Positions 1 through 44,330 of a DNA stretch of 64,000 nt are shown here, piece after piece. Numbering within the stretch: the stretch's first letter is position 1; each line of letters begins with the position of its first letter. Source of the DNA: Bryopsis sp. KO-2023 (Eukaryota; Chlorophyta; Ulvophyceae; Bryopsidales; Bryopsidaceae); contig BSYQ01000005.1 in assembly GCA_030272585.1 (NCBI GenBank), forward strand, positions 2,790,001 to 2,854,000, read 5' to 3'. A program made the translations under genes and the position numbers. The notes under the pieces are model-generated. The model was not told the DNA's origin. It saw nothing but the letters and a program-made list of their open reading frames with translations, and ran no database searches.

Positions 1-102
1 CGATCTCGGTAATCTCGATCTCGCAGAGGGTCGACAGAGTCTCCACGGAGCGAGCACCGGATACGTCGTCGAGCTGAGATGTCCGAGTGGTTAAGGAGGT
101 GG
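1..102 (+). repeat. tRNA-array unit 0, right end
   Basis: This is the last ~100 bp of a tRNA-array unit, matching the sequence just before tRNA-Ser(CGA) in the other units (for example 15478-15579). It shows that the array extends to the left of the window. It stops abruptly at 102, where LINE-1a begins inside the tRNA-Ser gene. Confidence 0.9.
73..102 (+). pseudogene. tRNA-Ser(CGA), 5' 30 nt, split by LINE-1a
   Basis: Nucleotides 1-30 of tRNA-Ser(CGA): acceptor strand GCTGAGA, the D arm and the first bases of the anticodon stem. The gene is cut after GGTTAAGGAGGTGG (89-102). The same 14 bp recur at 12628-12641 on the far side of LINE-1a, followed by the remaining 3' part, so the two pieces are one disrupted gene. 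Confidence 0.93.
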
Positions 103-795
103 CCCTTCTCTGAAAAAATTTTTTTCGTGAAAATTTTTCTATTCGCCGTTTTTGTGTTGTGACACCCGCTTCACTCGTCGGAAACGACTGAGAAACACCC
201 GCCCCCACGGCTCGCCACCCTCGCTGGGGGTTGTCCTCCATTTTTCGAAGCTCTCCGACGATTTTTGGCCATTTCTGTGGTCGTCATCAGTCGCTGTTGG
301 GTCAAGGGATGCGCCTGAGAGTGGATTTTCGTTGGCCAACACTCGCTTATACCTACTGAGGCGTCGGAACTCAGATCATCACCCAGGCTGGACCACTGCG
401 CGACATTTGGGGACTGCTACTGGTTTGCTGTGGGATCCTCACAAAGGTCGGAGAATTCGCGGGGCTTTTTCATTTGTCACGGCTTGCCTATCACGGCCTC
501 GCTTGCACCAGACGTCACCTGCTGAGGAATCGAACCTCAGTCCACCACCCAGGTCTGTTTGCTCTCGATTCTACCTCTCATCGAGACGCCAAGGTCGTCG
601 CTGCGGACGTCGGGAGTTTCTGTCTGGTGGATTCTTTTTCGTCCAAGACTCCACGAGAGTCGGTGGGTCACTAACCTCGCAGTTGCGTTCTTTCTCCTCT
701 CCCCGCTTGGGTTGGCTCGGTTTCTGCAGTGGATCTCTCTGGAGCTGTTGGGATCAAAGTCGAGATCAGACCCTCCTATTTTTGAAAGGGTCGTT

Positions 796-3072
796 ATGGG
801 ACGCACGAGTCACAACTGGCGGAAAGGCTTGTGCGCGCAGGGCGACGCTCAAGCGATGGGGACACTTGATTCCACAGAGGTTTTGGCGGAGGTGCCTCTT
901 TTTTGGCAGGCGCTCAACAATGTGGAGAGAATTTCGTCAGTGGTGTTGGACTTTGTGAGTGCCCTTGGGTCAGGGAACCCCTCACTAAAGGAAGTGACCT
1001 TGGACAAGGCTTTGGAACAGGATCATAAGTTTGGTGAGATTATTGCCGATTTGTTTGATTCTGTGGGACCACTATTGATTCAGGCTGTGGAGGATTTTGG
1101 GAATTATTCCTCTCGAGAGCTTGGTTTCTCTATTTTGGTCAATGCGATTGCTAAGGTCACAGCTCCCGGCTCACATTTACAGTCACAACAAGCATCTCAA
1201 GAGCAAACTAACAGCACACCACAAAACATTTCAAGGGAAGGTTCTCAAGTCCGTGGGAATTCTGGCACGCAAGACCCACAACCCTTTCATTCCCGAGACA
1301 ATCACGTTTCCTTGGGGGACTTTTCTTCGGTTCTTTGGGATGGATCAGTGGATGTCACTCGGCAAAACTTGGATAAGGAGAGGACTGCCAGCTCAGTGGC
1401 ACCGCTAGCAACGACTCCCTCGGAAAACGGCAGTGGATCCTCTAGAAAAAGGGCTCCTTTTTCTGTACCTACACATATCAATCACGACTCCCAACGAAAT
1501 CTTCGGGATAACACACATTGGATTCGGTTGCAAGCTATGAATACTCAGGGTAGGCGGATGATCTCCCCCCGTTTGATGGCATCTACACTTCAAGCTTGGA
1601 TTCGTGGCCACACCCCAGATTTTGCACCGGTGATCATGGATGTGCGAAGGGACTTCAAGGGACAATTTTTTATTCAGTTTGAACAAGCTGATTGGGATAA
1701 GGTTGACGAAATCCTACAGATGCCAAATGGGGATGGCTTGACAATTTCACTCAAGGCTTTGGGAGCCTGGAAAAGATTACCCCAAATACCTCTACCATCA
1801 AAGGGAGCAGCTGCAGTTTTGGATCAATCCGGAGGATACACCAACATACCTCAGGGTCGCCAGGTAACAACTGATGGGTCCGCTCCAGAGCTGGCTGCGG
1901 TTGCTAAGCAGGCAGTTAGAAGAGGCAGCGATCTTCTGCCAAGGCCATTGACAGACTCCACTCAGTTGTCACATGCAAAGGAGTTGGACCTGCAGCAAAT
2001 TCAACATAATCTGACCGACGTAAAGGAGGAAATTGATCAAGTTGGGAATCACACCGGCCGTAACAATCAAAAGGAAGAGAGGGTACCTACACATATCGAC
2101 CACGACACAACACAACAAGGGACCCACAGAAATTCACTGAATGGACAGGGAGGACAAACAAGAACTCATCAGGGGCATCGGGATGCAACTGGACAATCTA
2201 CATTCACCTTTCCTAAAGTTGAGCCTACTCAAAAGGCTCGGGACTGCTTGGACACACGTATACCTCTACCATCCAAAGGGGAACTCCAGGGGGTCTTTAA
2301 GGATTCGGGGCAGCCAGTTTTGTTTACCTCATCAGTTTCGAAAGGTATTCACAGGGGATCATTCAAGGCACATGCACCACACCACAAAGCTTCTTCTGGG
2401 GGACATACCATTGCAACCACTGGGGCAATACCATGTTCTCAGCCAGCCACATCCAAGTGCCAGGGGTCTCTACACTCTCTCTCTATTCAGGTGGACCTTC
2501 TGTTGCAAGGGGTCATGGATCAGGTTGCCAGTGGGACAGTATCTGCAGGGCACAGCTCACACATTCAAAAGATACCACAAAGGACAAGAGGAACTGTAGA
2601 TCACCAGGAGGTTACTAGCCAACAGAGCCACACAAGGAACTGGGACTCTCACAAAGGGTTTAAGGATGCAAAGGGGAAATCAGAGCTATTTTCGCGAACA
2701 CAGGGAAAGAAAGAAGCCCCCCACACGAGACGAACCATGAAACCGACCAAGATACAGGCAAATCCAGGGGCTGCTCTCACCAGGAACTCGCCCACTCTCA
2801 TTTCTCTCCTCGCTCCAGGGAACGCTACTGCCAATGGGTGGTACCGAGGTCAGTGTTGTCGGTGTACCTCACTCCAGGACGATTTGCTGTGGCAGCACCC
2901 TAGCGCCATGAACTGCTACTCCATGGTGACCCCCCACTGGCCTGGGTGGAACGTGGTAGATTCGAACTACCCTGCACCGTTCGTTCCTTTGCTGAAGCCC
3001 TTGGACTTTTCGGAATTCTGCGCAACTGGTCCTCCATGGCCAGGGTATCGACGTCGAAGACAGTGGGTTTGA
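796..3072 (+). CDS. LINE-1a ORF1-like protein
   Basis: The frame codes for 758 residues from ATG 796 (context GTTATGG). It is open further upstream but without an earlier ATG. Residues ~243-331 match the LINE-1b protein closely (shared motif SPRLMASTLQAWIRGH and the following VRRDFKGQF block). I infer this to be the RNA-binding core of a LINE ORF1, possibly RRM-like. After that core the two copies diverge. This one lacks the CCHC zinc knuckles of LINE-1b and has instead a ~420-residue Gln/His/Thr-rich tail in which short segments recur (variants of PTHIxHD and IPLPSKG). It ends 60 bp before the KDZ insertion. Probable role: coating element RNA in an RNP. Whether it is translated is unknown. 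Confidence 0.6.
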   Translation: MGRTSHNWRKGLCAQGDAQAMGTLDSTEVLAEVPLFWQALNNVERISSVVLDFVSALGSGNPSLKEVTLDKALEQDHKFGEIIADLFDSVGPLLIQAVEDFGNYSSRELGFSILVNAIAKVTAPGSHLQSQQASQEQTNSTPQNISREGSQVRGNSGTQDPQPFHSRDNHVSLGDFSSVLWDGSVDVTRQNLDKERTASSVAPLATTPSENGSGSSRKRAPFSVPTHINHDSQRNLRDNTHWIRLQAMNTQGRRMISPRLMASTLQAWIRGHTPDFAPVIMDVRRDFKGQFFIQFEQADWDKVDEILQMPNGDGLTISLKALGAWKRLPQIPLPSKGAAAVLDQSGGYTNIPQGRQVTTDGSAPELAAVAKQAVRRGSDLLPRPLTDSTQLSHAKELDLQQIQHNLTDVKEEIDQVGNHTGRNNQKEERVPTHIDHDTTQQGTHRNSLNGQGGQTRTHQGHRDATGQSTFTFPKVEPTQKARDCLDTRIPLPSKGELQGVFKDSGQPVLFTSSVSKGIHRGSFKAHAPHHKASSGGHTIATTGAIPCSQPATSKCQGSLHSLSIQVDLLLQGVMDQVASGTVSAGHSSHIQKIPQRTRGTVDHQEVTSQQSHTRNWDSHKGFKDAKGKSELFSRTQGKKEAPHTRRTMKPTKIQANPGAALTRNSPTLISLLAPGNATANGWYRGQCCRCTSLQDDLLWQHPSAMNCYSMVTPHWPGWNVVDSNYPAPFVPLLKPLDFSEFCATGPPWPGYRRRRQWV

Positions 3073-3125
3073 AGTGGGGTTTTTCTGAAAGTGTGATGTG
3101 GGGGAGTTTGTTACTTGCGCCATGG

Positions 3126-3132
3126 GAATGAG
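3126..3132. repeat. Left 7-bp target duplication of KDZ element
   Basis: GAATGAG precedes the left terminal inverted repeat, and the same heptamer follows the right one at 12455-12461. Joining the flanks restores continuous LINE-1a sequence. Confidence 0.8.
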
Positions 3133-3360
3133 GAGTTATGGATTGCGCCAAAACCCGGCCAAAATGAACACCCCGAAAAATACCACTTCCTGGTCCAGAA
3201 GCACTTCACATGCACTCTTCGCGTGAGACCTGCACGCATCGTCCCCATGTCGCACCGTCCCCCCCACGACCGACGACGAGCCCCCAAGCTCGGAACGCGT
3301 GCTCGCCGAGATCGAAACTCGTGCTCGCCAACCCAGATACCAGAAACGCGCGCGAACTCG
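3133..3360 (+). repeat. KDZ left terminal inverted repeat
   Basis: Inverted copy of 12230-12454 with only scattered mismatches. Similarity fades near 3360, where both ends still carry a GATACCAGAAACGCG-type segment. Confidence 0.85.
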
Positions 3361-3449
3361 AAACGCTCTAAAGTAGAAACCCACACTCGCCAGCAATTAA
3401 ACCAGAAACGTTCAGAAACGCTCGCCAACCGTGAACGCCCGAAACTCAC

Positions 3450-3925
3450 TCACCAGCCGTCAAAACCAGAACCACGCGAGCCTGTAAACTGCCGCTCGCC
3501 AACCGCGCAACCACAACCACATGAGCCTGTAAACTGCCGCTCGCCAACCGCGTAACCACAACCACGAGAAAGTGTAAACTCCTGCTCGCCAACCGTCCAA
3601 CCAGAACCACCACAAACTGTAAATTGCCGCTCACCAACCGCGCAGCCACAACCACGAGAAAGTGTAAACTCCTGCTCGCCAACCGTGTAACCAGAACCAC
3701 CACAAACTGTAAATTGCCGCTCACCAACCGCGCAGCCACAACCACGAGAAAGTGTAAACTCCTGCTCGCCAACCGTGTAACCAGAACCACCACAAACTGT
3801 AAATTGCCGCTCACCAACCGTGCAGCTAGAACCACCACAAACTGTAAACTCCTGCTCGCCAGCCTGCAGCCAGAAACGAAATTCCCACTCACCAGCCGTC
3901 AAAACCAGCAATCCCTGCCTTGGAC
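3450..3925 (+). repeat. 45/90-bp minisatellite, subterminal in KDZ element
   Basis: Repeats of ~45 bp (CTCGCCAACCG...CCACAACCACGAG type) are arranged as a 90-bp higher-order unit. For example AAATTGCCGC recurs at 3621, 3711 and 3801. They lie between the left inverted repeat and the transposase start, where transposase-binding subterminal repeats are often found. The long open frames across them are a by-product of the 45-bp period. Confidence 0.8.
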
Positions 3926-3936
3926 TTAACCCAGGG

Positions 3937-6900
3937 ATGGAGAAAAGGTCGAAAAGAGGTCGCCCTTCTGGTCGGGCAAGAAATTTTTTCGTTGGTGGGG
4001 ACATAGTGTCTCTACCTGATCCTCGACGTGGAAGTGGAACTGGTCGGACCTCTGATGAAGGTGCACATGCAGGTGCTGGGAGTGCTCTAGCGTCTGCAAG
4101 TGCTTGGGGTGATGGAGATGGTTGGGTTGGGGACGACCTTGGACCCGAATATTATGTGGAAGTGAACAGAAGAGTCGTGGAAACGACGGAAGAAAACAGA
4201 AGAGCTGCTGCACTTCTGTTAAAATTAATTCAGGAGAAGAAACACCATTCCTCAGGGTGTTCTCGGGGGCTGCCTATGGTGAATACGCAAAGGAGTGACC
4301 TTGTGACATTTGTTTTGCCAGATGGTGAAATGCATGTGGTGATCACTGAACTCAGAAATAAAGGTACAGGATTTGTAGCAAGCTGCAATTGTACAATGGA
4401 GCAAGAAATAATGGGAAATGCATTGGCAGCTGGCATGGATCTTGAAGATCTTCCACCAGCTTGTGAGCATGTCAGCGTTATTATGGTATGTCAATGTGTT
4501 ATTAACCGTTTAAAACATTTTTTTATTGCAAACATAAGGATTGTCAAAACAAAACTGGCTCAAAATCTGGAATCCTCTTAAAAATAATCTTCCTTTCAGG
4601 TGTTACTGGAGTGGAACAAGATTTCCCTTCAATCTCTTTTCACGGAGCCGAGGACGAGTTACTTTGAATCAACTGAAGAGTCTACAGGAACTGTGTGGAC
4701 CATTCCCTTTTATGATAAAAAACAAATTTGGTTTGTTGTTGATGATGATGGGGATTCCGCACGAGTTACATTGAAAAAACGTTTTACTTGCTCTTGCTCT
4801 GGAAGCTCCAATTGCAAGCATATTATGATGATCAAGGAAACATCAGTGGAAGATCCAACATCGAGAATGGGGAGGACTGATTTTGAACAACACATCCAAA
4901 GATCACTGGATGTTGCCACCGGAAAATGGAGACTTTCGTGCATATCAAAGGTGGGAGATGCGCAATTCAGTTTTCACTTTTTTAATTAAAACTAATAAAT
5001 AATAAATAAAATAAGAGTGGGTGGGAGTTGTGATAAGAGGGGTGAAGTCTGTATTGTTTTCTAGAAAAAAATCTTATTTTATTATTATTATTATATTATT
5101 ATTACTACTGGTTTCACAACAGAACTGGTGGAAGGGGCTGGAGTGGCAGCAGTTGAGGTCACATCGAAAATGGAGAGGAACGGTTTTTTGGACCATGCTT
5201 ATGGAATATGGCATTGCATTGTCGCTGACCGTTTGGTTTTTTTCTGGACACAACAGTCGCTATTATCGCTCTTTCTGAACTGAGATGTCTAAAACAGGAG
5301 CGAATTCCAGTAGACCTTGTGGATGAAGATTCACAGCCTTGTCGAAAATGGGGAAGTGAAGATTTTCCAGCAAATCTACTTCCAACTGAATATGAAAAGG
5401 GTTGGTGCGATTGTGGGGAGAGGTTGTCGGCTGGAGAGCTCCGTCCAAGACAAGAAGTAAACATATATCACGTCTCCACGATGAAAAAAGCAACTCTGAT
5501 GATGGTCACGTGCGGATGTGGCAAGGAACACGGTCACTACGATGGGGCTGAACACTCGCTTCTCAATTTTGATGATAAGGACATGTTCACCTACGAGCTC
5601 CTGCAACAGTATGTTTTCAATGTTTTCTCTTTCTTTTCCAGTATACAAACGCCCTGTCCCGTACCTAAAAAGAAGGCGAACTGAGATCACTTGGTCAAAG
5701 CAAATTATATTCTAAGATTATGGCCAGGGTTCGAACCATACCCTACTTCACTACTCCTAAACTCTTGGAGAGCTACTGCAACGCGCTCCACTCGAAAAAC
5801 CATCGCCTCAGTGTGTTGGAACTTTTTCGTATTGACACGAAAAAGGTTTACAAAAGAACGTCCAAACACTCACCAACAAACAGTGTGCAGTGTGCTGTGG
5901 CGCTACGGCAAAATAAACCGCCAGCGGGTGGGGGTTCGAGTCCTCCTGGCCGCTATCACGTTTTCACTTTTTATAACACCATTGGCTAAATCGTCACCTA
6001 TCCACCCAACCTCTATAACGATCACAAGACAACATGGTTTGGGGTTGTAGTTGTTAGTCTTTAGATTGTGGGGTCTTGGTTTCGAATCCTGACCATCACA
6101 TAGAAAACTGTCACACTAAGGATGTACTTGTTGTTACAGATATTCAAACACAATCAAGAGATCCCGCATGCCATTCGATACGTGGTGGGAGGTGGTCCTA
6201 GACACGTATCGGGTGGCTGGAATAAACATGCAGGGGAAAAGAAAAAAATTTCAGGCGGCGTGGTTGGATTATGTGAGTTTGCAGGACATCGATTATGCGG
6301 AGGCGTTTGGTTGTCATTGTGTGGGAAACAATGGTGTAGCCCGAAACATTGTCCTTGACGGTACATTAATCGGTTTCAGGGCTGATTTGGTGAGTGTTTC
6401 TTTTTCTCTTAAAATAGAAAAATATTTTTAAGTGGTGAATATGTGTGAAATGTTTGTGAAATATCAACAGTAGTATCTTAACTCTGATTTGGTGAATGTG
6501 TGCATGAAAATTTTCTGGAATATGAAGGTAGTAATTGCAATCTGATTTGGTGAATGTGTGTATGAAAAATTTTCTGGAATATGAAGGTAGTAATGCAATC
6601 TGATTTGGTGAATGTGTGTATGAAAATTTTCTGGAATATGAAGGTAGTAATGCAATCTGATTTGGTGAATGTGTGTATGAAAATTTTCTGGAATATGAAG
6701 GTAGCAATTGCAATCTGATTTGGTGAATGTGTGTATGAAAAATTTTCTGGAATATGAAGGTAGTAATGCAATCTGATTTGGTGAATGTGTGTATGAAAAT
6801 TTTCTGGAATATGAAGGTAGCAATTGCAATCTGATTTGGTGAATGTGTGTATGAAAATTAAATGGAATATGAAGGTAGTAATTGCACTCTGATCTGGTGA

Positions 6901-8952
6901 ATGTGTGTGTGCGTATTTTTTTCAGTACTAAAAAAATGGTCATTAAGCCCATTCCCCAGTTTCCATGAACACGTTTTGTTAACATTTCAAATCAGACAGT
7001 ATATTTTACATAAAAGTATTGACAGATGTGTGTGTACACATGTGTGCCAGTGCCACTTCACAAAACCTTGGATTGAACCGAAGAACTCTACCCCGACACC
7101 TGGATCAATATTTTCTGCCAGATCTCTACTACCAGAGAAAAAATTCCGATCACAGCTGAAAACATTTGCTTCGGAAGGCTTGTCACATCAGGAATTTGAC
7201 GGGCTCAGAGCCTATCTGCAGGGAGAGAATCTTGCCTACCTGGATACACTCGTTGTAAGACACGCTTGAATCGACCTGGAAGAAAGGCAGGCACGTCAAC
7301 ACACGTCAGACTGACAACCTACTATGTTTTTCCAGGTGACTTCCCCTCAATTTTGTGGGGGGAAAATTGTTTGCAATCAAGATCGACGAGTCAAGGCATT
7401 TCTCAAAAATATTGGATCAACAGCACCTGTCAAAGCTTTGATATCGTCTTGTGCTCAAGATGTTCTTCAAGAGCTTCTCCAAAGAGATGATCGAAAACTG
7501 GGGGCTCGAGATACATTGATCCTTGCGGTGCGTTCTATTTCAAGGGTCTTTGCATGTGTTCTTGATGCCAGTCAACTATTCGTTACCAAAGCAAAAAGGC
7601 GCCGTTAACAAGGGGCTTACTCGTTGTTGTGCGTGTGGGTTACTGTCCACAGACTACATTTTTCGTTTGGAAACACTCTGAGATTATTCAATCACCTTAA
7701 CGCATTTCTGACGAAAGAAACTACCAATGTCCAGACGCAGGCACCTGTCATATACGGAATTCTCACATTTACCCAGTCCACTTTTCGTTCCATTAACGAT
7801 GAGTGCTGCCATCTACTTCAAAGAATGGTGGAAAAATGCAATATTGCAGACGTTCCAGCTTCGTTAGATGAATACACCCGACATTGCCGGAGGAGGATGG
7901 TGGTTGCAAATGAACCGGTCAGCGAACCAAACAACGACAATGATACAGGTGTGTAATTTCTTATCGAGTGAAAATGAAAAAGAAATAAAAGCATAATGAA
8001 TAATGGTCTTAAACCTTGCAACAGTGTTTCATATTGAGTGAACTGGCCACAAGCATAGAAGATTGGTACAGTTGGTTTAAAACTTTCCGATATTTCTTTG
8101 AGCAGGGGATATGGGTTCATATCCTACCCATTTTTTGGTTGTGTTTCTTGTGTTTTTTTATTGTCAATGTAATTTGATGTTTTTTTGTTCGTTTGTTTGT
8201 GTTTTTTTATTGTCACGCCACTGAAGCTTGATTATTGATCAGTTCCAGATTATGCCTCTTGGACGTGTGAAGAGTCCTTCCTTCGGACTGGACACTACTT
8301 TCCGCGCAATCCAGTCGTTCGACCCTTGAAACGGTGAGGGGTTGCTCTGCTCGAACCCCATGTCTCACAACGTGCAACTGGCAAAGTAACTGTATTCCAC
8401 ACTTGCTAAGGTGCTAACTCTGATCACATTTGCAGATATGCTGCCGATTTGCTAAGCCAAGCTACTGGTCGGACGTGCACAAAATATCAAGGTCGGCATA
8501 AAAAGTTGACTCCTGGTGTTGTTCTCTTTTTTTGCCTTGATTGTGCCCACTGCATTGGATTTGTTGCACTCGACAATGCCGAATCACCGAAGCAACCCTT
8601 CGAAGTGTTTTTTTCTCGTTGGAACGAGGCTCCTGACATCATCGTGTACGATAATTGCTGCCACCTGCATCAATATATTTTAAATAGGGAACCACAGTTT
8701 TTTTCGAAGACGCGGTTTCTTATAGATGCATACCATTCGCCCAATCATACGTCTTGCTCAACCTCCTACTTCATAAAAAATCATGCTGATGTACGACACC
8801 ACAATTCTCAATTATCGGAACAAAAAAACAGTCGATTAAAATTGATAAAATCCCATTGTGCGTTCATGGGCCAAGGGACCTTTTTGACGTACGTGAGGTA
8901 TTTCTTGCGTTGTTTGAATCAAAAAGAAAGCGATAGGATCATTTATGATTGA
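3937..8952 (+). CDS. KDZ transposase, multi-exon
   Basis: Likely exons: 3937-4485, 4600-4950, 5123-~5230 (uncertain), 5298-5608, 6140-6389, 7051-7254, 7336-7527, ~7735-7948 and 8436-8952. Most have GT/AG borders and keep frame, but the junctions around exon 3 and exons 7-9 do not close cleanly, so the gene may be damaged or misparsed. Two SWIM-type CxC...CxH fingers come first (CNC...CEH in exon 1, CSC...CKH in exon 2). A Cys-rich KDZ segment follows (CDCGE, CGCGKEHGHYDG). The catalytic core is in exons 5 and 9: FQAAWLDYVSLQDI, then LDGT, YDNCC and SEQKNS, which I take as the D, D and E. The start is the first ATG after the minisatellite. The protein should bind the element ends and cut DNA in the nucleus. 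Confidence 0.8.
5609..6139 (+). other. KDZ transposase intron, no gene
   Basis: A 531-bp intron (GTATGT...TTACAG) joining codons in frame between the LLQ and YSN residues. It contains two isolated B-box-like GGTTCGAGTCC/TTTCGAATCC words, but no cloverleaf could be drawn around them. Confidence 0.6.
6390..7050 (+). other. KDZ transposase intron with 57-bp minisatellite
   Basis: The donor GTGAGT is at 6390 and the acceptor is near 7050. From ~6480 to ~6900 it holds seven tandem copies of a 56-59 bp unit (TCTGATTTGGTGAATGTGTG...). The repeat is purely intronic, so array-length changes should not alter the protein. Confidence 0.8.
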
Positions 8953-11160
8953 TGGGATTATTAGCAGATTATGTGAGGTTGTGGCCTTGGGAGATGTTTC
9001 AGTGTCGTTTTTGTAATTTGGGTTCTTCTTCCCACGGAAGTGATATTGGATGTGCAAGATATTTGGGTGGACATATTGAATAACCTGCTCCCAATGGAGC
9101 TGGATCCTCTTTTCACAAAACAAAAGGAACAATGGTGTTGAATGGCTGTTGGCAGAGGGTTTGGCACCATTGAAGCTAGCTTTTGACAGGTCAACATCTT
9201 AGTTCCAGTTTTTTTCTTCTTGTCAAACATTTGTTCTGCATCAGTCGCTCGCAAGGAAAAACTCCAAAAGAAGAGCCAAACATATTTTTTTTCCCTTTTC
9301 TTTATGTCAAGCAAGAGCAGAATCTCAAGATTTCAAGCAGAGAAAATACAACTGAAAGACCACTATTGTTCTCACTCTGATGAATACCCGGGAAATGCAG
9401 GAAATTGTCTATTTTACCTTCCAACACAAAAAGATTTCTTTTTTCAGCGTATCCTACAGTTCCTTTCCTGTCTTATTTTCTTTTGTTGAAAAAAAAAAAC
9501 ACATTCACATTCTTTTTTTCCTTCCAGATAGATGTGGATTTCTGAATAGTCCCCCCTCCCCCCTTTCCAAAAAGACCCACCGATCTCATCACCATTCCAA
9601 AAGCATATTCTCATTTTAACCCCGTTGTATCTAAAAAACTGCAAATCATGGATGCATCACCTTTTGATAGCTCCATTTCTCCTCTCCCCGTCTTTTTTGT
9701 TCTTTCATCGCTTTTTTTGGGGTTCCTTCCTGCACCCCCTCCCTCTTTCATATCTTTTTTGTTTAACCACCTTTTTCAAAATGTCAAAACCTCCCTGCAA
9801 CTCTTGTTCACATTGAACCCCATTGAATTTCTCCATAGCCCCCAAAAAATCTTTTCTCAGTCCCTTTTCCAGTTCCACACTCCCCCTTCCCCCCCCCCTC
9901 CAAAAAAAAATATAAGATACCAAATGTTTCTTTTTTTTTAACTGAGGCAAGAGGTGTAACCATTCAATTCATGGTTCCAACACGCTTCCCTAACAATTTT
10001 CGTGAGAAAAACTGTTGTCCCTCCCCTGCACGCATTTTTTTCCTCAGGCTGACATCCCCCTCCACATTGCGGCGTGGGGATGAACAGTGAACACCGACTT
10101 CAATGGATTCTCTGCCAACGGGTTCAAGTAGCTCGTTCCCCCAAGACCCCCAAGCACGGACCCTTTTCCTCCCTCATGCCCCCCTCCGCCGCCACCCACC
10201 AAATCTATGAACAAACCCCCATCGCACAAGCGACACCTCCCTCGCAGCAGGTTGCTTGCCACGGAAGGCCTTCCATCAAAGAAGAAGCCACAGCTGTTGC
10301 CGTCGGCTTTGTTCTCATTCTCGTTGACGCTCGCCCACACCTCTAAAACAGTGAAATTTAATGCAGACAAACATCCATCCCATATATATTTTTTTTGGTC
10401 CCTTTTCTTGGAAAGAAAGGCTGAATGGGGAAAAACCAAAGAAAATAACGAGAGCAAACGAACTCCAAAGGAGGTTTGGAAAGAAACCTGCATGTTTCCA
10501 GAAATTTCACATGTTTGTCAAAAATCCGACAATACCACCAATCATAAACGTATATTAAACCCCTCAGTCTCATCTTCCTTTGCCCCACATGTATAGTCTT
10601 TGTATATACAAAGATTAATGTATGCTGAGTATGAGGTTTTTTTTCAATCCCCATGTTTTCTTTCTCTCCTTTTTCGCACCACCTCTCTCACGCCTCTTCC
10701 ATGCCTCTCTCTCTCAAAGCAAAAAGCAAAGAAAGAAAAGTCCCTTTTCCAGTTCCACCCGTCCCCCTTCCCCCCCCCCCCCCCCCCCAAAAAAAAAACA
10801 GGAGAGAGGAAAAATAAAAAAAATACTTTTCTTATAATCTTCTCTTCAAAAACTCCTCCACACTCCTGGCTTCAGTACTCTTCAAGTTCCTGTTTAAGAT
10901 GATACGATGTCACAGACCTTAACACTTCAAGAAAAGCATATCACAATAAACAACTGAAAACATTACAACCTAAACACAAGGATGTGTTTCGATATACCCA
11001 GTACAATGTCAAACATTAGCATTCAGTTCCCATGTATTCTAGAAAAATAAAGAAGGAAGGAACTATTCCCCTGAGCGTATAAGCCCGCCACTATGGATGC
11101 ATTGATGATAGTATTGTTCCCACATTTCATCTTTATTGTTGCCTCTTTCTTAAAACCTTT
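8953..11160. other. KDZ interior between the two genes, no gene seen
   Basis: About 2.2 kb of low-complexity sequence rich in T, C and A runs. One ~45-bp segment (CCTTTTCCAGTTCCAC followed by C-run and A-run) occurs twice, near 9860 and 10741. It presumably contains the 3' UTRs of the converging genes. I found no convincing exon on either strand. Confidence 0.6.
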
Positions 11161-12066
11161 CTAGCCATACTTGCTTTTCTCCATGAAGCAATAGTATGCT
11201 TTCTTTCGAGGCAAAATCTCCAGCAATGCTGATATGGTCTGTAAATTCTGCTCCTTGCTTCGACCTAGAGATAAAACGCATAATACTCCATTCAACCATT
11301 TAGTTTATTGGAGTACCAATTGAGCGGAAACTAAAAAAAATAAAAGTAATAATAACAATAATAAAAATAATAATTCAAATAATTCTGACGAATCGAATTC
11401 AATCCACAAAGACAATAAAAAACATCCATACCACTGTTGGAAGGCCTTGTGAAGGGATTGTTGGAAGGCCACCAGGGCGGGGCCACCTTGTTTTTGAATG
11501 GGAAGCGGGACTTCCCTTCCCATGTTTGCCAAAGAATACTGAACAGTTTTCTTGCACCGAGAAATGTCAGATCTTCGAAGCTCCACTCAACACTCCCTAA
11601 CAAATGGAAATTCTCATATTGTCATTCCAAATTACAAGCTATTGGAATAGGGTTTTTTTAATGTTTGGTTGCAGAAACATACTTACCGTTCGAAGCTTCC
11701 TCGCCTGCGTGCCCTCTGAGAAAGGCCTCTAGAACTTGTAAGCCTGTTGCTTCAAGGCCTTCTTGTTGGAGGCGAGCTTCAATCTCTACGAGCCTGGAGA
11801 CGAAATTTCGTCCTTCCAACGAACTTCTCAGCGCAGGGTTGCAACCTGCGTGGAAAGACGTCCCCAGGTTGTAGTGCATCCACATAAATGCTCCACAACC
11901 TGTCGAAACTTCGACTAGAGCCTTGTTCGCCTTTTTCAAGCGTCGTCGAGTTCGCCTTTTCGCACCGCTGTTGAGGGGAAACGAGTGTGATCAGGAGCGA
12001 AGTAAGATCCTGAATATTGACTATCCAAAACAGCGCACCTTTCTACCTTTCTGAAGTCTCCGCCAT
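11161..12066 (-). CDS. KDZ-element accessory protein, 189 aa, four exons
   Basis: Exons on the minus strand: 12066-12047, 11967-11687, 11596-11432 and 11264-11161 (TAG). All three introns have GT/AG ends (one GTAAGT), and the phases close exactly to 570 nt, strong evidence for a real gene. The protein starts MAETSESG, has a basic nuclear-localisation-like stretch (RRTRRRLKKANK, ~11-22), a region with Cys/His/Trp, a short helical segment (~65-85), then a tryptophan-rich block (LWQTWEGK, APPWWPSN) and a basic C-terminus. I do not recognise the family. It runs opposite to the transposase, starting ~390 bp inside the right end. It could be a DNA-binding or regulatory partner, which is inference. 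Confidence 0.7.
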
Positions 12067-12229
12067 TGATGCAAGCGAAATTGCTGGTTTGGAAGACAAC
12101 GGCCAAGAGAAGCGGTTTGCTGAAGAGAGAACTGCGTTGGAACAAAAACGTCCGGCTTGCTTCAGGTCGGTGCCGCCGGGAAAAGCTCGCCTGCGTTCCA
12201 GCTCCAAACCGTATGAGCGTGAGTTTCGC

Positions 12230-12454
12230 GTTCGCACGCGTTTCTGGTATCAGGGCTGACGAGCACGAGTTTCGATCTCGGCGAGCGCGCGTTCCGAGCT
12301 TGGGGGCTCGTCGTCGGTCGTGGGGGAGACGGTGCGACATGGGGACGATGCGTGCAGGTCTCACGCGAAGAGTGCATGTGAAGTGCTTCTGGACCAGGAA
12401 GTGGTATTTTTCGGGGTGTTCATTTTGGCCAGGTTTTGGCGCAATCCATAACTC
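12230..12454 (-). repeat. KDZ right terminal inverted repeat
   Basis: Reverse complement of 3133-3360, ending ...CCATAACTC followed by the GAATGAG duplication at 12455-12461. Confidence 0.85.
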
Positions 12455-12627
12455 GAATGAGAGTCAGAGAGGAACGTGGGTTAGGTTACGTCAGGGGTAT
12501 TCTTTTTTTGGGACTGTTCGTTTTTTACGGTGCTGCTGCAAGGCAGTCGCCAGTTGGGGTGGTACAATTAATTGGGACATTCATTTTTGCCGATATAAAA
12601 AAGGCATTGTAATCAACAAAAATTCCA
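12455..12627 (+). mobile_element. LINE-1a 3' end
   Basis: This 173-bp tail matches the 190-bp fragment present in every array unit (for example 25177-25366): GTGGGTT-GGTTACGT near its start, a shared GGCAAGGCAG-like block in the middle and AATTCCA at the end. It directly abuts the right copy of the 14-bp tRNA-Ser target duplication. Confidence 0.85.
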
Positions 12628-12693
12628 GGTTAAGGAGGTGGACTCGAAATCCACTGGGTTTATCCCGCGCAGGTTCAAATCCTGCTCTCAGCG
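12628..12693 (+). pseudogene. tRNA-Ser(CGA), 3' part after LINE-1a (unit 1)
   Basis: Begins with the target duplication GGTTAAGGAGGTGG and continues through the CGA anticodon, variable arm and T arm to the discriminator G. With 73-102 it makes up the LINE-1a-split gene. The B box is intact but the A box is 12.5 kb away. Confidence 0.92.
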
Positions 12694-14542: not shown

Positions 14543-14572
14543 GCTGAGATGTCCGAGTGGTGAAGGAGGTGG
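14543..14572 (+). pseudogene. tRNA-Ser fragment before LINE-1 tail, unit 1
   Basis: The first 30 nt of a tRNA-Ser(CGA)-like gene with T-to-G at nt 20 (GGTGAAGG instead of GGTTAAGG). It is cut at exactly the same bond as the LINE-1a and LINE-1b targets. Confidence 0.9.
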
Positions 14573-14762
14573 AGAGAGAGAGGAATGTGGGTTGGGTTAC
14601 GTAAGGGTTTCCTTTTGGGGACAGTTCATTCTATTTACGGCGCTGCCGCAAGGCAGTTTCCGGATTCATGAGTGGGACACGGGACTGGGTGTTGTACGTT
14701 TAACTGGGGATCGGACCTCAAAATTCCGCCGATGTACAAAAGGCGCGTAAAAATGAATTCCA
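14573..14762 (+). mobile_element. 5'-truncated LINE-1 tail in tRNA-Ser, unit 1
   Basis: 190 bp homologous to the LINE-1a 3' end (12455-12627), flanked by the 14-bp duplication GGTGAAGGAGGTGG at 14559-14572 and 14763-14776. Both copies carry the same G variant, as expected if the gene already had it before insertion. The insertion predates array amplification because every unit has it. Confidence 0.88.
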
Positions 14763-14792
14763 GGTGAAGGAGGTGGACTCGAAATCCATTGG
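14763..14792 (+). pseudogene. tRNA-Ser fragment after LINE-1 tail, unit 1
   Basis: The target duplication plus ACTCGAAATCC of the anticodon arm. Similarity to tRNA-Ser stops there, and the variable and T arms are missing, so the gene was dead before or soon after the array spread. Confidence 0.85.
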
Positions 14793-15441: not shown

Positions 15442-15549
15442 GTGCTTGAAGCCGGAGCGCGCCGATCCCGTGGATCCCGATCTCGGTAATCTCGATCTCG
15501 CAGAGGGTCGACAAAGTCTCCACGGAGCGAGCACCGGATACGTCGTCGA

Positions 15550-15631
15550 GCTGAGATGTCCGAGTGGTTAAGGAGGTGGACTCGAAATCCACTGGGTTTA
15601 TCCCGCGCAGGTTCAAATCCTGCTCTCAGCG
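15550..15631 (+). tRNA. tRNA-Ser(CGA), unit 2
   Basis: 82 nt and complete. Acceptor GCTGAGA/TCTCAGC, anticodon loop CTCGAAA, long variable arm, discriminator G. It is the uninterrupted form of the LINE-1 target, with the target word GGTTAAGGAGGTGG at nt 17-30. Confidence 0.96.
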
Positions 15632-15685
15632 TCCCACCCATGCTTTTCTCGGAGCGGCCGAAGAAAGGAGGATGCAAGGAGGATG

Positions 15686-15757
15686 CGCCGTTGCCGGGAA
15701 TTGAACCCGGGTCTCCTGCGTGACAGGCAGGAATACTGACCACTATACTACAACGAC
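15686..15757 (-). tRNA. tRNA-Asp(GTC), unit 2
   Basis: Identical to the unit 1 copy, with an intact T loop. Confidence 0.95.
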
Positions 15758-17507: not shown

Positions 17508-17537
17508 GCTGAGATGTCCGAGTGGTGAAGGAGGTGG
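17508..17537 (+). pseudogene. tRNA-Ser fragment before LINE-1 tail, unit 2
   Basis: Same 30-nt remnant as in unit 1, ending at the LINE-1 insertion bond. Confidence 0.88.
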
Positions 17538-17679
17538 AGAGAGAGAGGAATGTGGGTTGGGTTACGTAAGGGTTTCCTTTTGGGGACAGTTCATTCTATT
17601 TACGGCGCTGCCGCAAGGCAGTTTCCGGATTCATGAGTGGGACACGGGACTGGGTGTCACAAGGCGGAAGGGGGGTACC

Positions 17680-18040
17680 GCCGACGCCGTCGCCGACGCG
17701 TCGCCGACGCTCTTTCGCCGACGTTTTCGTCTTGCGAACGACGTTTCGTCGGCGACGCTGTGTCGCCGACGGCGTCGGCGACGGCATCGCCGACGGTTTC
17801 AGTAGCGTCGCCGACGGTTTCAGTGACGTCGCCGACGCCGTCGCCGACACAGCGTCGCCGACGAAACGTCGTTCGCAAGACGAAAACGTCGGCGACGCTG
17901 GTGTCGCCGACGTCACCAGCGTCACCGACGTCACGTCGGCGACGCTGCCTGAAAAGTGTGACCGACGCGTCGCCGACGTCATAACGACGGTGTGTCGGCG
18001 ACAATGACGTCGGTGACGGTGTCGCCGACGGTGTCGGTGG
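17680..18040. repeat. Left subterminal GTCGGCGACG repeats
   Basis: More than twenty direct and inverted copies of a CGTCGCCGACG/GTCGGCGACG word. In CACTA elements such subterminal repeats bind the element-encoded TNPA-type protein. The overlapping long frames here come from the triplet-like GC pattern. Confidence 0.8.
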
Positions 18041-19040
18041 GTGCCACTGAAACCTGTTTTCTGGATGTGGAATTGATGAATTTGGGGGAATAGATTGAGG
18101 ATTTGATTGATGATTCGATTGATGATTCCAGGTGTCGATCCCGGATCTGCTATTGCAGATGCGCCTGCAATCATACTCCAAATGGATTTCTTCTAAGAAA
18201 ACTATGGTTGACCCTCTCGGAGTCACTTCTTGAATTTCTTTTTTTCTTTTTTTGTTGATTCAATATATGTACCTTTTTTTCCCCAAAGGCACTCGATCTT
18301 GCCCCCAACTGTAAACAACAAATAGACTGGCCATGCGACCTCTTCTTTTTTTTTTCAAAGTTCTTGCAACAACTTCAGAATGTTAAAAAAAAAGAAAACC
18401 ACCCCATGTGTCAGTATCATTAGTAACACAAAGAAGAAAAACTCCCTCGAAAAGACTATGCCAAATGCTGGTGTCTGTGTCTTGAACAAAGAAAAAACAA
18501 CGAATCAGTGTGGTTGATTAATACAGACAGACAGGAAAGAAATCAATTCTCCCCTCCTATCCATCACAAAAAAGAAAAAGAAAAAAGCACAATTATTACA
18601 AAAACCCCTCGGTATTTCAGAAACTTCCCAAAACACTATCCCAACCCAAACTCTTTGGGTTTTGGAAGGGAACGGGGGTGAAAAAAAAGCCCGCCAACTA
18701 AAAAAAGAAACACCCTGTCACGGGCAGCTTGATTATGCTCCAGAAACCCCTATAATACTACTCGACATCAAAAATGTCAGAAAAAGAAGAAAAAAAATGT
18801 ATTCCCTATAAGATCAAGAATCGCAAAACGAGAAATAAGTGCTATAGTTTTCCGAGAAATGTAAAATTCTTATGAAGTTTTTTCCCCGTATATTCAATTC
18901 ATGCATTTCACCCTCAAGCCAAGATGGCTTCGTTGGGCAGCATCTTTTCAATCACAACACCACGATAAGGGTTTTCCACGCCCCCCATATATACATATGT
19001 TTTTGTATATTCAGATGTACATATACAACATCAGTGGTAT
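18041..19040. other. CACTA interior, AT-rich, no gene seen
   Basis: About 1 kb of A/T-rich sequence with homopolymer runs. It likely includes the 3' untranslated part of the minus-strand gene whose last candidate exon ends at 19046. Confidence 0.5.
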
Positions 19041-19045
19041 TTTGG

Positions 19046-21978
19046 TTATTTGTCAAGACCCAGAGCTCCTCCCTGTCCTGAGGACCTTTGCATGTTTTGG
19101 TGGAGGTACTCCAGGTCGATTTCGTTCCTATCCAAGGTCATCCCGTTAAAAGTGACTGTTTCCCCAGCCTCCATCGCCTGGCCCAAAATGTAATCACCCA
19201 CTCGATAAGCGTGGTAACCACGCCGTGGTTATCCAGCAAAAAAACGAGTACGTGCGATAATGTTGTGGAGAACTCAAACGGACAAAATCCAGCCGCCCTT
19301 GCACCCCGATGCATGGAATGTCACGAATCCTAAATCCACAGAAACACACCATCAAATGGGGAGAAAAAAAGCACAGAAATTAAGAGGCATCCTCACTTGT
19401 GCGCACTGCTGCATGCAGTGAACAGACCACATCAAGCTTTCAGTCATGGCAGTACGTTTCGTAGGGCTTCTGGGAGGGAAGTTTTAAAGCTTTCTCTGAA
19501 AACATTCAGATACCATGCACTGTCGTACCTATCCACCCCAGCAATCAGAGGCTCATCCAAAAATGCACCATTAATGGAATAGTGGCATTCCAGCAAAGGC
19601 TGCGCATGAGAAATCGACCTCGTGGGTTTAGGTTTCCCACCATCGGCATCGTCGTCTTTTTTATCGGGCTTCTTTTCACCGCCCCTTTTTTTCATAATGG
19701 ATGCGATGGGTTCCCAAGCCGCATTGAAAATTTCTCCGGCCTTCACTATGCATTTCCCAGAAAACATGACGGTCATTTCCCATCGCCTCCATCGATTTGC
19801 CTGCATGTGATTACACAGAGCTTTGGTCTAATGACTGTCTCTCTTGAAAAATAATAAAAAAACTACGCCAAGAAAGACGTTTTTGTGGTTTTTACTTACC
19901 GCTCTCTCCACAGTGTCTAAGTCAGGCGATGTCAGCCGCTTGTAATAGGAAGCAAGTGGATCCTCTTTCTCTGAGTCGGAAAGAATGGATAAAAATTAAG
20001 CCCAGCCCTGTCCGTGTCAAAAGCAATTATTTGGACATCATGCAGATGCAAAAAAAAGTGAACGAAAACAGTCATGAGCAAGGTGATATAGAGCAGGTCT
20101 GACAGGAAATTTGACGTATTCGGGTGTGGCTGAGGTTTTAAATCCTGGTCGGTCCATGTCAAGTTTTGATTCTTTCAAAAACACCTGCCTCTTGTCTGTG
20201 AACAAAAGAACAGAAGCCACCTGGACACATTACTTAGGGCAGATTTAAAAATGTTTGTCACCTCCGGAAAAAGGCTTCCAGCACCCCCTCTGTACATCCA
20301 ATCGATTTCCTCCGTTCGCATCGTGCATATTCCCCTCAAAACCATCCCTGAAACCCTAAAAACCAACAGAACATTTTACCAACATCAATCACCACCCTTG
20401 CATTTGCTTTTTCTTTAATTCGATGTTTTCTGTTGGGTCAAGAACCTTTGCAAAACTGTGAATAATTCCATACCAACAGTCCTGCCTTCTTTCACCTGTT
20501 TGGATGTGCGATTGCATAGGCCAGTCATGTTTTTTTCAAGTTCTCACCTTCATACTCTGACAGACCGCATTCAACTACGTCTTTCTTGGAGATACACGCA
20601 GAATTACTTCTGTGATTTGCGATATTTCTTGAAGGATTTTTTGGGGGGACTTCAGACAGTCTTGACTTTCTCTTTTGCTTCCTCCTTGGCGTCCAAAAGA
20701 CCATGGTCATTAAGCACCTGCAAAATGCAAAACCAAATCAACAACTTTACCCCTTTTCGACAGAAAACACACACATACACAAATAAAAGATTAAAAAAAA
20801 TCAGAACCTTCACTCTCCTAGACACAGAAGAATATACAAAAATAAAACTGATAGCAACAAACAGAAGGCCCCATGTGAATATGCATCTGGACACCAGCAA
20901 AATTTCAGTAACACGAACAACACAGTTAACGTTGTTGTGGGCTGGTCGTCGCTTCCTCCCTCCCACAAATGGGGGTCTGTTGCTAACTATCCGCCAGGAA
21001 AAAACAAAGCTATGTTGGACAGTGTGCATTCGCACACTGATGATTGCTTGCAGATGGAAAGTGTGTTGGGGGTTCAACCTGATCAATTCCAGAGATCCCC
21101 CCACAAATCCACCAGAAACTCGAGGCCTAAACCCAACAGCATTAAAATACTTGCTTCAAACCCTGCTGCCATTCGAAATCACAGCTCAGGATGTTCCAAG
21201 TCAACCTAACCCTAGTTTCCAATCGGATCTTGTGATTATGTTTGCAAACCACAATTGTGTGCTGGGATCTCTATTTACAACTACATGTGTCAAATTTATT
21301 CGAACGCGATGTTCGCTTTTGGAATGGTGGTGCCGACCCGTCACTGACGAGTTCCAGCCGACTTCACACGTACCACTTCTTCGCATTTTTAAAGAAAAAC
21401 AAAGGTAAAACAGCATACGAGCTTAAAAAGCATCACTTACAGTTTGCAAGTCACATAACCCTCACCAAACTCTCCTCCTTTCTCTTTCCCTGAGTCGAAA
21501 TTGAGCCGGCCCTCTTTATTCAGCCTCTCCACAAATTTGTGCAGCTCAGCCTCCTGTCAAGACACACAGGTCTTCTGTCAGAAAAAAACGAAGCAAAGGA
21601 AAGGAAAGGGAAGGCCCCGAACTATCCACGAACTTTGAAACACGAAGGAAAATGTCTTCAAGAGACAACAGGAATGAAGCCTTACAGGGAGACAACAGGA
21701 ATGAAGCCTTACAGGGGTTCACAAGCTTCGGCCAAAATGCTGGCAAACACCACCGCCACCGCACCGCCGCCGTTACCACTTCCCTTCACTTTCCACTTTC
21801 CCTCCTTTCCTTGTTCCAACAGCGCAGAAAGACGCACACGCGCGCACCGCGTCGAATTTCCCAGAGCGGCGAAAGGGGTTGATGCGATTGCGCTGTTGGG
21901 TTTGGTGTCGGGGTCACACTTGACGTTAAAAATTAACATGATTTGTACAATCAAATCTGGTTGGGATGGGTTCACCAT
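19046..21978 (-). CDS. Multi-exon gene inside the CACTA-like element, function unknown
   Basis: Candidate exons on the minus strand: 21978-21713 (from ATG, donor GTAAGG), 21553-21441 (donor GTAAGT), 21378-~21207, 20717-20548 (donor GTGAGA), 20355-20262, 19970-19900 (donor GTAAGT), 19800-19444 and ~19230-19046. Joins 21441/21378 and 19900/19800 keep frame, but others are not resolved, so this is an exon map rather than a protein model. Recognisable coding texture includes EAELHKFVERLNKEGRLNF, a basic RRKQKRKSR stretch, an acidic-lysine linker KKPDKKDDDADGG and MTLDRNEIDLEYLHQNMQR. I cannot assign a family, and it does not look like a CACTA transposase. It may be a captured host gene or the element's own accessory protein. 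The first donor lies in a 27-bp tandem duplication (~21662-21714), giving two possible donors. Confidence 0.5.
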
Positions 21979-21984
21979 TCAACG

Positions 21985-22330
21985 ACGCCATAACGATGCC
22001 GTCGGCGACGCGCCCGTCACCGACGCAGCGTCGCCGACGAATGACACCTGACGGCGACGCCATAAACGACGCCGTCGGCGACGCGCCCGTCACCGACGCA
22101 GCGTCGCCGACGAATGACACTCGACGGCGACGCCCTAAACGATGCCGTCGGCGACGCCTCCGTCACCGACGCAGCGTCGCCGACGAATGACACTTGACGG
22201 CGACGCTGTGACTGCACCAACCGATGTGACAATCACATCATATTTCCGTCGCCGACGCTCCTGGTGACGTCGCCGACGCGCTTGTCACGAACGACGGTGT
22301 CGGCGACGGCGTCGGCGGTACCCCCCTTCC
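21985..22330. repeat. Right subterminal GTCGGCGACG repeats
   Basis: Three ~65-bp tandem copies (GACGCCGTCGGCGACGCGCC type followed by AATGACAC), then more GTCGCCGACG words up to the right inverted repeat. Confidence 0.8.
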
Positions 22331-22411
22331 GCCTTGTGTGTTGTACGTTTAACTGGGGATCGGACCTCAAAATTCCGCCGATGTACAAAAGGCGCGTAAA
22401 AATGAATTCCA

Positions 22412-22441
22412 GGTGAAGGAGGTGGACTCGAAATCCATTGG
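22412..22441 (+). pseudogene. tRNA-Ser fragment after LINE-1 tail, unit 2
   Basis: Right target duplication plus part of the anticodon arm, as in unit 1. Confidence 0.85.
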
Positions 22442-25176: not shown

Positions 25177-25366
25177 AGAGAGAGAGGAATGTGGGTTGGG
25201 TTACGTAAGGGTTTCCTTTTGGGGACAGTTCATTCTATTTACGGCGCTGCCGCAAGGCAGTTTCCGGATTCATGAGTGGGACACGGGACTGGGTGTTGTA
25301 CGTTTAACTGGGGATCGGACCTCAAAATTCCGCCGATGTACAAAAGGCGCGTAAAAATGAATTCCA
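25177..25366 (+). mobile_element. LINE-1 tail, unit 3
   Basis: Uninterrupted 190-bp 3' end of LINE-1 between 14-bp duplications (25163-25176, 25367-25380). Confidence 0.88.
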
Positions 25367-28131: not shown

Positions 28132-28321
28132 AGAGAGAGAGGAATGTGGGTTGGGTTACGTAAGGGTTTCCTTTTGGGGACAGTTCATTCTATTTACGGC
28201 GCTGCCGCAAGGCAGTTTCCGGATTCATGAGTGGGACACGGGACTGGGTGTTGTACGTTTAACTGGGGATCGGACCTCAAAATTCCGCCGATGTACAAAA
28301 GGCGCGTAAAAATGAATTCCA
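28132..28321 (+). mobile_element. LINE-1 tail, unit 4
   Basis: 190-bp tail between the 14-bp duplications. Confidence 0.88.
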
Positions 28322-33910: not shown

Positions 33911-34333
33911 TGTTAGTCTTTTAGCGCTATACGAGGTAGTTTGGGATAGAGCCGAGGGTGGCTGACGCATGTGGGTTCACGAGTAAGACAGATTAGACCC
34001 AGAGTTTGGGGCATGCGTCAGCGTACTACACTTAGGGGTACTTAAGAGGCCCACTCGTTGTTTTGATACTCATAGTTACTTTGTAAGAACTCGGGATTCG
34101 TGGGATTGGTGTGTTCCCGCTTGTGTGTGTGTTTGTGTGTGTGTGTGTGTTAAGTGTTTGCCTGACGCAATCACTTCCCAACCCAAGTGCTCTAGTAGCG
34201 TTCACAACCGCGCTAGCTAGAGAGTTGTCTAAAGCAACAAACCCCACAAGTATACTTGCGTTAGCCAGCAAGTTATCACGAATCCAACCAACACAGCCGA
34301 CCACTATTGCGTCACCCACAAGCTTCACTATCA
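33911..34333 (+). repeat. G1 5' LTR
   Basis: Starts TGTTAGTC and ends CACTATCA. Includes a (TG)n microsatellite around 34122-34150. Confidence 0.95.
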
Positions 34334-34334
34334 A

Positions 34335-34347
34335 TTGGTTTCGGAGC
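34335..34347 (+). other. G1 primer-binding site
   Basis: TTGGTTTCGGAGC starts one base after the LTR. The complement TGGTTTCGGAGC would pair with a tRNA ending GCTCCGAAACCA. None of the tRNAs in this window ends that way. G2 has the same word. Confidence 0.7.
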
Positions 34348-34478
34348 GAGGCAAGAACTTTAAGTTCTTGAGATCGAAACTTGTGAACGTGGCGCAACAA
34401 ACGTTTTTGTTTGTTTGTTTGGTAGAGAGAAACTCCAACCGTGGTTGTTGAGTACTCCCAAATAGTGGCTGAGAGACC

Positions 34479-37130: not shown

Positions 37131-37165
37131 CCGCCAGGCAGGAAACTGCTTCGTCTGAGCCTGGC
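37121..37165 (+). promoter_or_regulatory. G1 gag-pol -1 frameshift signal
   Basis: The slippery word G-TTA-AAC (37121-37127) is in the gag frame immediately before the TGA. After a 5-nt spacer comes a 7-bp stem GCCAGGC (37133-37139) pairing with GCCTGGC (37159-37165) across a 19-nt loop. The pol frame is open from 37109 and overlaps gag by only 22 nt, so a -1 shift here fuses Gag and Pol. Confidence 0.75.
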
Positions 37166-41128: not shown

Positions 41129-41578
41129 GGAAACAGAGTGTTTGATGGCTAAGGTGGAACTCCTTATTGCAAGGGGGCGCGAAAAAGGATACCTTAGAAA
41201 AACTCTGTCGACTTCCAAACCAACTCTTTATCTTTAATGCGTTAGGTGCCTAAGTTATTTGGCTGGCGCAGTAAGTGTAGCTTCAGTAGTACTTTAGAAA
41301 CCGGGCAAACGATGTCACATTCGAGATAGTGTGGTTGTTCCGAGAAAACCCCTATCAAGTGACGTGTTGAGGTGGTCTTGACGAGACTCCAACCGAGCGA
41401 AACGTTGGTGTCTCACCCCAATAACCCAACGAGGAAAGTGTACGAGTCACCCAGCCTTATAAGCGCAGCCCTCGAACCATTTTGCCCTAGTGTTTGTGTG
41501 AACGGAGCGAGCTCCTGAGTGAAAAAGAGTCTAAAGACGCACAAACCGTTGTTTATATCTTTCTTTCCGACAAACATA
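41129..41578 (+). other. G1 pol-ORF3 intergenic region
   Basis: 450 bp with no convincing ORF. It may hold a promoter or splice acceptor for the downstream ORF. Confidence 0.4.
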
Positions 41579-44297: not shown

Positions 44298-44310
44298 TTG
44301 GTTTCGGAGC
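44298..44310 (+). other. G2 primer-binding site
   Basis: TTGGTTTCGGAGC, the same 13-base word as in G1, next to the LTR end. Confidence 0.65.
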
Positions 44311-44330
44311 CAGGGTGCGCACACTTTTGA

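Follow-up and report, generated by a model that had tools for sequence, protein, structure and literature searches.

The 64,000-nucleotide stretch analyzed here (the window; contig 5, C5:2790001-2854000, of a 91.1-Mb genome in 28 contigs) contains copies of a long interspersed nuclear element (LINE) inserted within genes for the serine transfer RNA (tRNA-Ser). Judged by its predicted proteins, the family is a retrotransposon without long terminal repeats (LTRs) of the apurinic/apyrimidinic endonuclease (APE) type, its second open reading frame (ORF2) encoding an APE-type endonuclease and a reverse transcriptase. Strict specificity of this LINE for a single bond in tRNA-Ser is very probable. 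An autonomous form and a short companion form occupy the same bond, with site, target duplication, orientation, and ORF2 domains directly observed. An earlier note on this DNA had proposed such specificity, with tabulation of the flanks of genomic copies as the check; the proposal is borne out by 8 of 10 genomic 3' ends, which lie inside tRNA-Ser, and by the 14-bp target upstream of 8 of 8 5' junctions.

The first copy in the window comprises the following features.

73-102, forward strand: 5' half of a tRNA-Ser(CGA) gene recognized on the joined flanks; its last 14 bp (89-102) are the first copy of the duplication
103-3132, forward strand: main part of LINE copy 1, a short form without ORF2
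796-3072, forward strand: short-form ORF, 758 aa from a Met conserved in four copies, with about 113 aa in common with ORF1 of the autonomous form
3133-12454, no strand assigned: nested DNA transposon behind the copy 1 ORF, with inverted repeats at 3133-3364 and 12223-12454
12455-12627, forward strand: 3' tail of LINE copy 1, its first 7 bp being the duplicate produced by the nested transposon
12628-12693, forward strand: second copy of the 14-bp duplication (12628-12641) and the 3' part of tRNA-Ser(CGA)

Copy 1 is flanked by exact copies of GGTTAAGGAGGTGG at 89-102 and 12628-12641. The duplication is exactly 14 bp, since the bases preceding the two copies (T and A) and those following them (C and A) differ. 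Insertion occurred after nucleotide 30 of the tRNA gene, whose anticodon is formed by nucleotides 34-36. Joining the flanks restores a complete tRNA-Ser(CGA), called cga at positions 73-154 of the joined sequence, and the joined flanks are 99.5% identical to an intact unit around 15466-15686. The whole of 89-12641 had previously been taken as the LINE interval, which is correct for 103-3132 and 12455-12627, but not for 3133-12454. Most of the interval is a 9.3-kb DNA transposon that landed in the LINE, as indicated by 232-bp inverted repeats (96.6% identical), the 7-bp duplication GAATGAG on both sides, and an ORF (5229-5684) matching CxC4 (5.8e-9), which is associated with KDZ transposases. 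Copy 1 as a 12.5-kb LINE was accordingly rejected. The transposon also holds tandem repeats at 3449-3875 and 6433-6908.

The second copy belongs to the autonomous form.

57898-57927, forward strand: 5' half of tRNA-Ser, in which the 14-bp target occupies 57914-57927
57928-60056, forward strand: LINE copy 2, 5' part of the autonomous form
58586-60056, forward strand: autonomous-form ORF1, containing a CCHC zinc knuckle and interrupted by another element

The left junction of copy 2, between the target at 57914-57927 and position 57928, matches that of copy 1. Likeness to other LINE copies stops at about 60056, inside ORF1, from where another repeated element continues; the 3' end of copy 2 lies outside the window.

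A third insertion at this site survives as a relic.

14559-14776, forward strand: partial tRNA-Ser containing a 190-bp LINE tail (14573-14762), with GGTGAAGGAGGTGG on either side of the tail

Further relics start at 25163, 28118, and 56907, with 190-bp tails at 25177-25366, 28132-28321, and 56921-57110. The tail aligns with the LINE 3' tail and, as had been noted, is flanked by a duplication variant of its own, GGTGAAGGAGGTGG. The relic site consists of the first part of tRNA-Ser alone, and the joined relic flanks are not called as tRNA. Genome-wide, 45 relic junctions remain after subtraction of the 8 LINE copies from 53 matches (0 control matches). In the unit at 17524-22425, the relic ends (17538-22411) stand approximately 4.9 kb apart, compared with 190 bp elsewhere, and the interior contains a 73-nt tandem repeat as well as an inverted repeat of 72 nt. 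The relic is a single event multiplied along with the tRNA array. Three independent events had been claimed at one bond, one of them represented in each array unit: three distinct events do stand, but the relic units are one event copied. Relic, copy 1, and copy 2 are different events because the relic is a 5'-truncated tail, copy 1 a short form, and copy 2 an autonomous form.

LINE 3' ends were collected genome-wide by two routes, the DNA-search counts of copies being lower bounds. The last 173 bp as query yielded 11 DNA matches, one of which (C5:3157841) spans positions 1-42 only, and the pattern TGTAATCAA-N(0-10)-ATTCCA yielded 14 matches (0 in the control), 10 of them coinciding with DNA matches. 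The four pattern matches without a DNA match (three on contig 2, one at C5:477907) were dropped, leaving ten 3' ends. Eight of these run into tRNA-Ser at the same bond, starting G[G/A]TTAAGGAGGTGG.

C5:2802627, 2914272, 2920366, 3633190 (GATT), and 3664473, forward strand: LINE 3' ends followed by G[G/A]TTAAGGAGGTGGACT and tRNA-Ser
C5:3145499, 3988784, and 5889610, reverse strand: LINE 3' ends followed by G[G/A]TTAAGGAGGTGGACT and tRNA-Ser

The anticodon region is CGA in five of the eight and AGA in three, so the restriction to one isoacceptor that had been claimed is wrong; genes for Ser(CGA) and Ser(AGA) both serve as sites because the 14-mer is common to them. GGTTAAGGAGGTGG occurs 282 times (176+106) in 91 Mb, compared with 7 occurrences of the reversed pattern, which places the finding of 8 of 10 3' ends on the 14-mer far beyond chance. 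By simple division, a random insertion would land on it about three times in a million. Of the 282 places, 100 were listed and part of those inspected; one listed place, C3:7677159, is not tRNA.

At the opposite end, the first 650 bp of copy 2 match three long 5' ends and three short stubs, and the first 698 bp of copy 1 match four long ends, one 5'-truncated copy, and one stub. Together these define seven distinct 5' ends (three autonomous, four short form) and one truncated end. GGTTAAGGAGGTGG directly adjoins seven of the eight junctions; at C5:2713900, 13 extra bases intervene. The left flank is plain tRNA-Ser in six of the eight. Both ends are in hand for four copies (copy 1 and the copies at loci L051, L052, and L027), and tRNA-Ser is called in each once the flanks are joined (cga, aga, cga, and aga, respectively); three of these joined flanks are 99.1-99.5% identical to empty units. 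The short-form copy L027 has tRNA-Ser(CGA) on its left flank and tRNA-Ser(AGA) on its right, and genes of these two types lie 301 bp apart in another contig 5 array; from this we infer that L027 may derive from recombination between two neighboring insertions. A similar mixture occurs at the 3' end L018, where AGA-like sequence follows a CGA anticodon region. The hallmarks of LINE insertion are present in the family, namely target duplication, 5' truncation of some copies, and a fixed 3' end. Truncation and extra bases at the 5' end are usual marks of target-primed reverse transcription (PMC5391098).

Several observations weigh against strict specificity or against the completeness of the evidence for it. 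Two 3' ends miss the target: that at C2:4253050 (L011) runs into GGTTGGGG, and that at C16:718689 into GGTACGG, in sequence that contains GGCTCCGAAACC, a motif also found near an LTR-like element in the window. The flanks of both are not tRNA genes (C16 by ARAGORN, L011 by eye). The C16 5' end carries GAGTGGTTAAGGAGGTGG (GAGT and the 14-mer) in surroundings that do not otherwise form a tRNA, and this copy may be an off-target insertion that kept the 14-mer on its 5' side with other sequence on its 3' side. The truncated copy at C5:3159700 has a variant tRNA-Ser-like sequence as its left flank. With up to three mismatches allowed, the 5'-junction pattern gave 15 matches compared with 12 in the control; six exact matches and two three-mismatch matches backed by DNA matches were used, and the other seven dropped. 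Finally, the 5' part of the L050 locus, the source of the ORF2 described below, reads N, and no autonomous copy was seen whole with both junctions.

The search for a full-length ORF2 that had been suggested as a further step succeeded at L050, where the frame extends over 1337 aa with no stop. Pfam identifies RVT_1 (PF00078, 2e-33) and Exo_endo_phos_2 (PF14529, 1.5e-11) in it; RNase H was not found in ORF2 by Pfam. The whole of ORF2 retrieves 19 sequences from the PDB, comprising L1 and R2 reverse transcriptases, the R1 endonuclease, and some bacterial reverse transcriptases. For the endonuclease part by itself, the best match is the R1Bm endonuclease (PDB entry 2ei9, 3.9e-8), and all four PDB matches at E<=0.01 are R1 entries. 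The motifs QINL, LLQE, D-NAHSP-W, and SDH, which we take to be catalytic, are aligned between this part and the R1 entries. Among the best 35 of 206 candidates in the genome, one long ORF2 on contig 16 is 98% identical to that of L050 and contains one TGA, and the other matches above 90% are pieces, all on contig 5. The protein database holds at least 18 distant matches among the best 7999 candidates, the best listed at 30% identity. In the protein search with copy 2, 56 of 84 rows matching only query residues ~465-515 were set aside because these residues belong largely to the element inserted in copy 2. The CCHC zinc knuckle of ORF1 is a nucleic-acid-binding domain; an RRM was not found in ORF1 by Pfam and PDB searches.

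The short form measures 2952-3203 bp in four copies (copy 1 without its nested transposon). Both forms have in common the first 44-49 bp, approximately 171 bp at the 3' end, and approximately 113 aa of ORF1. Similarity between copy 1 and copy 2 by blastn is limited to a 44-bp stretch at the 5' end and 295 bp of ORF1, while the last 171 bp of copy 1 are 87% identical to the autonomous L050. The shared ORF1 piece (1493-1787 and 59352-59646) is 82% identical at the DNA level, and no Pfam domain was found in it. Pfam likewise detects no reverse transcriptase or endonuclease in the short-form ORF. In aligned pieces, identity to copy 1 is 82-93% for the other three short copies, and a frame of 679-758 aa from the conserved Met is kept in all four. 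If the observed differences were spread at random, approximately 14, 7, and 3 stops would be expected in three short-form pairs, and 0, 0, and 87 of 2000 simulations of these pairs were free of stops. The NG86 ratio of nonsynonymous to synonymous substitution (dN/dS) is 0.59-0.77, weakly below 1, the stop-codon simulation being the stronger sign. The companion frame is thus probably kept by selection. It is a guess that its product binds the RNA of the element itself.

Two other explanations for the pattern of insertions were considered. One or two old insertions might have been spread by amplification and recombination of the tRNA arrays, so that the apparent specificity would reflect copying, not targeting. 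The relic did spread in this way, with its 45 junctions, and the mixed CGA/AGA flanks of L027 and the mixed 3' side of L018 indicate that recombination or conversion happens. The insertions nevertheless lie in both CGA and AGA genes, their bodies differ (short or autonomous form), one copy is truncated right at the bond, and the relic has its own duplication variant. In addition, the short elements other than copy 1 resemble it at 82-93% identity in aligned pieces, as against 99.1-99.5% between the joined flanks of three copies and empty units. Spread by copying is therefore regarded as highly unlikely to account for the family.

Alternatively, the RNA polymerase III (Pol III) machinery could direct the element to its sites, as proposed for TRE5-A of Dictyostelium, in place of recognition of the sequence. 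The sites are indeed tRNA genes, and Pol III transcription complexes are the presumed landmark for TRE5-A (PMC5391098). Guidance of this kind sits poorly with the use of a single intragenic bond and with the constant 14-bp length of the duplication. It also sits poorly with the distribution of the 3' ends, since eight of ten lie in tRNA-Ser and the other two outside tRNA genes, despite the many other tRNA genes in the arrays, and with the C16 copy, which has the 14-mer at its 5' end outside a recognizable tRNA gene. Pol III targeting is accordingly considered improbable, though less so than copying, and recognition of the 14-bp sequence by the LINE is preferred.

Under sequence recognition, the ORF2 endonuclease would nick the antisense strand of the tRNA-Ser gene opposite the bond between nucleotides 16 and 17. 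From the resulting 3' OH, the LINE RNA would be reverse-transcribed, starting at its fixed 3' end (...AATTCCA). A cut in the sense strand 14 nt further on, after nucleotide 30, would give the 14-bp duplication. The short form, with the termini and part of ORF1 and without ORF2, would presumably be copied in trans at the same site. Loss of the interrupted genes may be buffered by the many tandem copies of tRNA-Ser.

Among known systems, the closest likeness is to R1. In PDB sequence searches the endonuclease is closest to R1Bm, and both elements use a fixed bond in a multicopy gene. Target duplications of 14 bp, equal in length to those observed here, are reported for R1 outside the melanogaster group (PMC3414825). 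The likeness thus covers R1-like endonuclease, fixed site, and duplication length. In contrast to R1, TRAS, and SART, the target is tRNA-Ser, not 28S ribosomal DNA or telomere repeats, and the host is of the green lineage. The TRE5 and TRE3 elements of Dictyostelium are also LINEs tied to tRNA genes, but they land at somewhat variable distances of approximately 50 bp upstream or 100 bp downstream (PMC5391098), and not at specific positions inside the genes (PMC3706591), whereas the present family inserts inside, at one bond after nucleotide 30. Dada DNA transposons do insert within tRNA genes at fixed sites, and in one group the gene is tRNA-Ser (PMC8869645, PMC3706591). They have a DDE transposase, 6-7 bp duplications, and no reverse transcriptase, in contrast to the 14-bp duplication and reverse transcriptase found here.

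tRNA genes were proposed as ideal LINE targets by Kojima and Fujiwara 2004, as cited in PMC3706591. In the available text of PMC4640811, PMC4120745, PMC5035012, and PMC8869645, tRNA genes appear among LINE targets with no named intragenic family, and the one described tRNA-linked case inserts beside the gene, not inside it (PMC3706591, PMC5391098). No LINE inside a tRNA gene was found in the literature searched; subscription papers and Repbase reports lie outside that scope and may hold an earlier description. Site-specific LINEs are thus a known kind, and an intragenic tRNA target was not found described within the same literature.

Relatives of the family lie close to telomere repeats. Contig 4 begins with approximately 3.2 kb of CCCTAAA repeats, directly followed by the 5' region of a related element (L053, 1-3230). 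On contig 7, CCCTAAA repeats run straight into an ORF1 relative (L038, 1225-1500). Such adjacency was not seen for the contig 6 relative in the pieces inspected. More LINE relatives occur near the ends of contigs 2, 3, and 6. The relatives on contigs 4 and 7 probably represent a telomere-inserting LINE family. The green alga Chlorella vulgaris has an element of telomere regions, Zepp1 (PMC10088271); the likeness to Zepp and other telomere LINEs is one of description and concerns these relatives, the target of the tRNA-Ser family being different. A tree of 22 rows (own-genome relatives and database matches, with no named clade references) places the tRNA-Ser ORF2 together with C6:5016k and a pair near the starts of contigs 6 and 7 (98/98), the branching order within the group being weakly supported (81/61); long branches and uneven composition drew warnings from the program. 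Four rows were omitted: one own-genome relative with a half-length frame, P0010, P0012, and P0014. A link between telomere and tRNA targeting inside one LINE group is suggested, which, if true, would provide a natural case of re-targeting between the two. A family on contigs 2 and 8 is approximately 30% identical to ORF2; among five of its 3' regions, three continue into CA- or TACA-type repeats and one into other sequence, and the fifth breaks off earlier.

The chances are about even that this lineage, with an endonuclease predicted to read a 14-bp tRNA-Ser sequence, is the first LINE specific for a single bond within a tRNA coding region, standing beside a telomere-repeat-inserting relative in the same genome and accompanied by a same-site companion with a maintained, ORF1-derived frame. 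How endonucleases read DNA is studied with LINEs that have strict targets in multicopy genes, and such LINEs also serve as gene-placing tools. The 14-bp target offers a compact site for in vitro tests, and its presence up to 282 times, together with a telomere-repeat relative in the same genome, allows direct comparison of how target choice changes.

ARAGORN identifies 57 tRNA genes across the window, in units of approximately 3 kb; the units at 12747-57277 are in tandem and hold tRNA genes for many amino acids. The places of the 14-mer suggest several similar arrays on contig 5. The host is photosynthetic and eukaryotic, belongs to the green lineage, and is probably an alga, given a green-type rbcL (475 aa) on contig 28 and COX1 pieces on contig 27; the latter are scattered over more than 12 kb, which we read as a mitochondrial gene with introns. 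Among the best 120 of 8000 rbcL matches, which point to the green lineage in general, the top identity is 92%, to an environmental sequence, and one match at 90% carries a gene-model name that probably denotes the streptophyte alga Spirogloea. Two direct-repeat pairs lie within the array of the window, 33900-34199 with 42489-42788 (99% identical, 8.6 kb apart) and 43765-44064 with 55643-55942 (100% identical, 11.9 kb apart), each over the 300 nt that is the length shown. Both pairs (33900-42788 and 43765-55942) are likely recent LTR retrotransposons.

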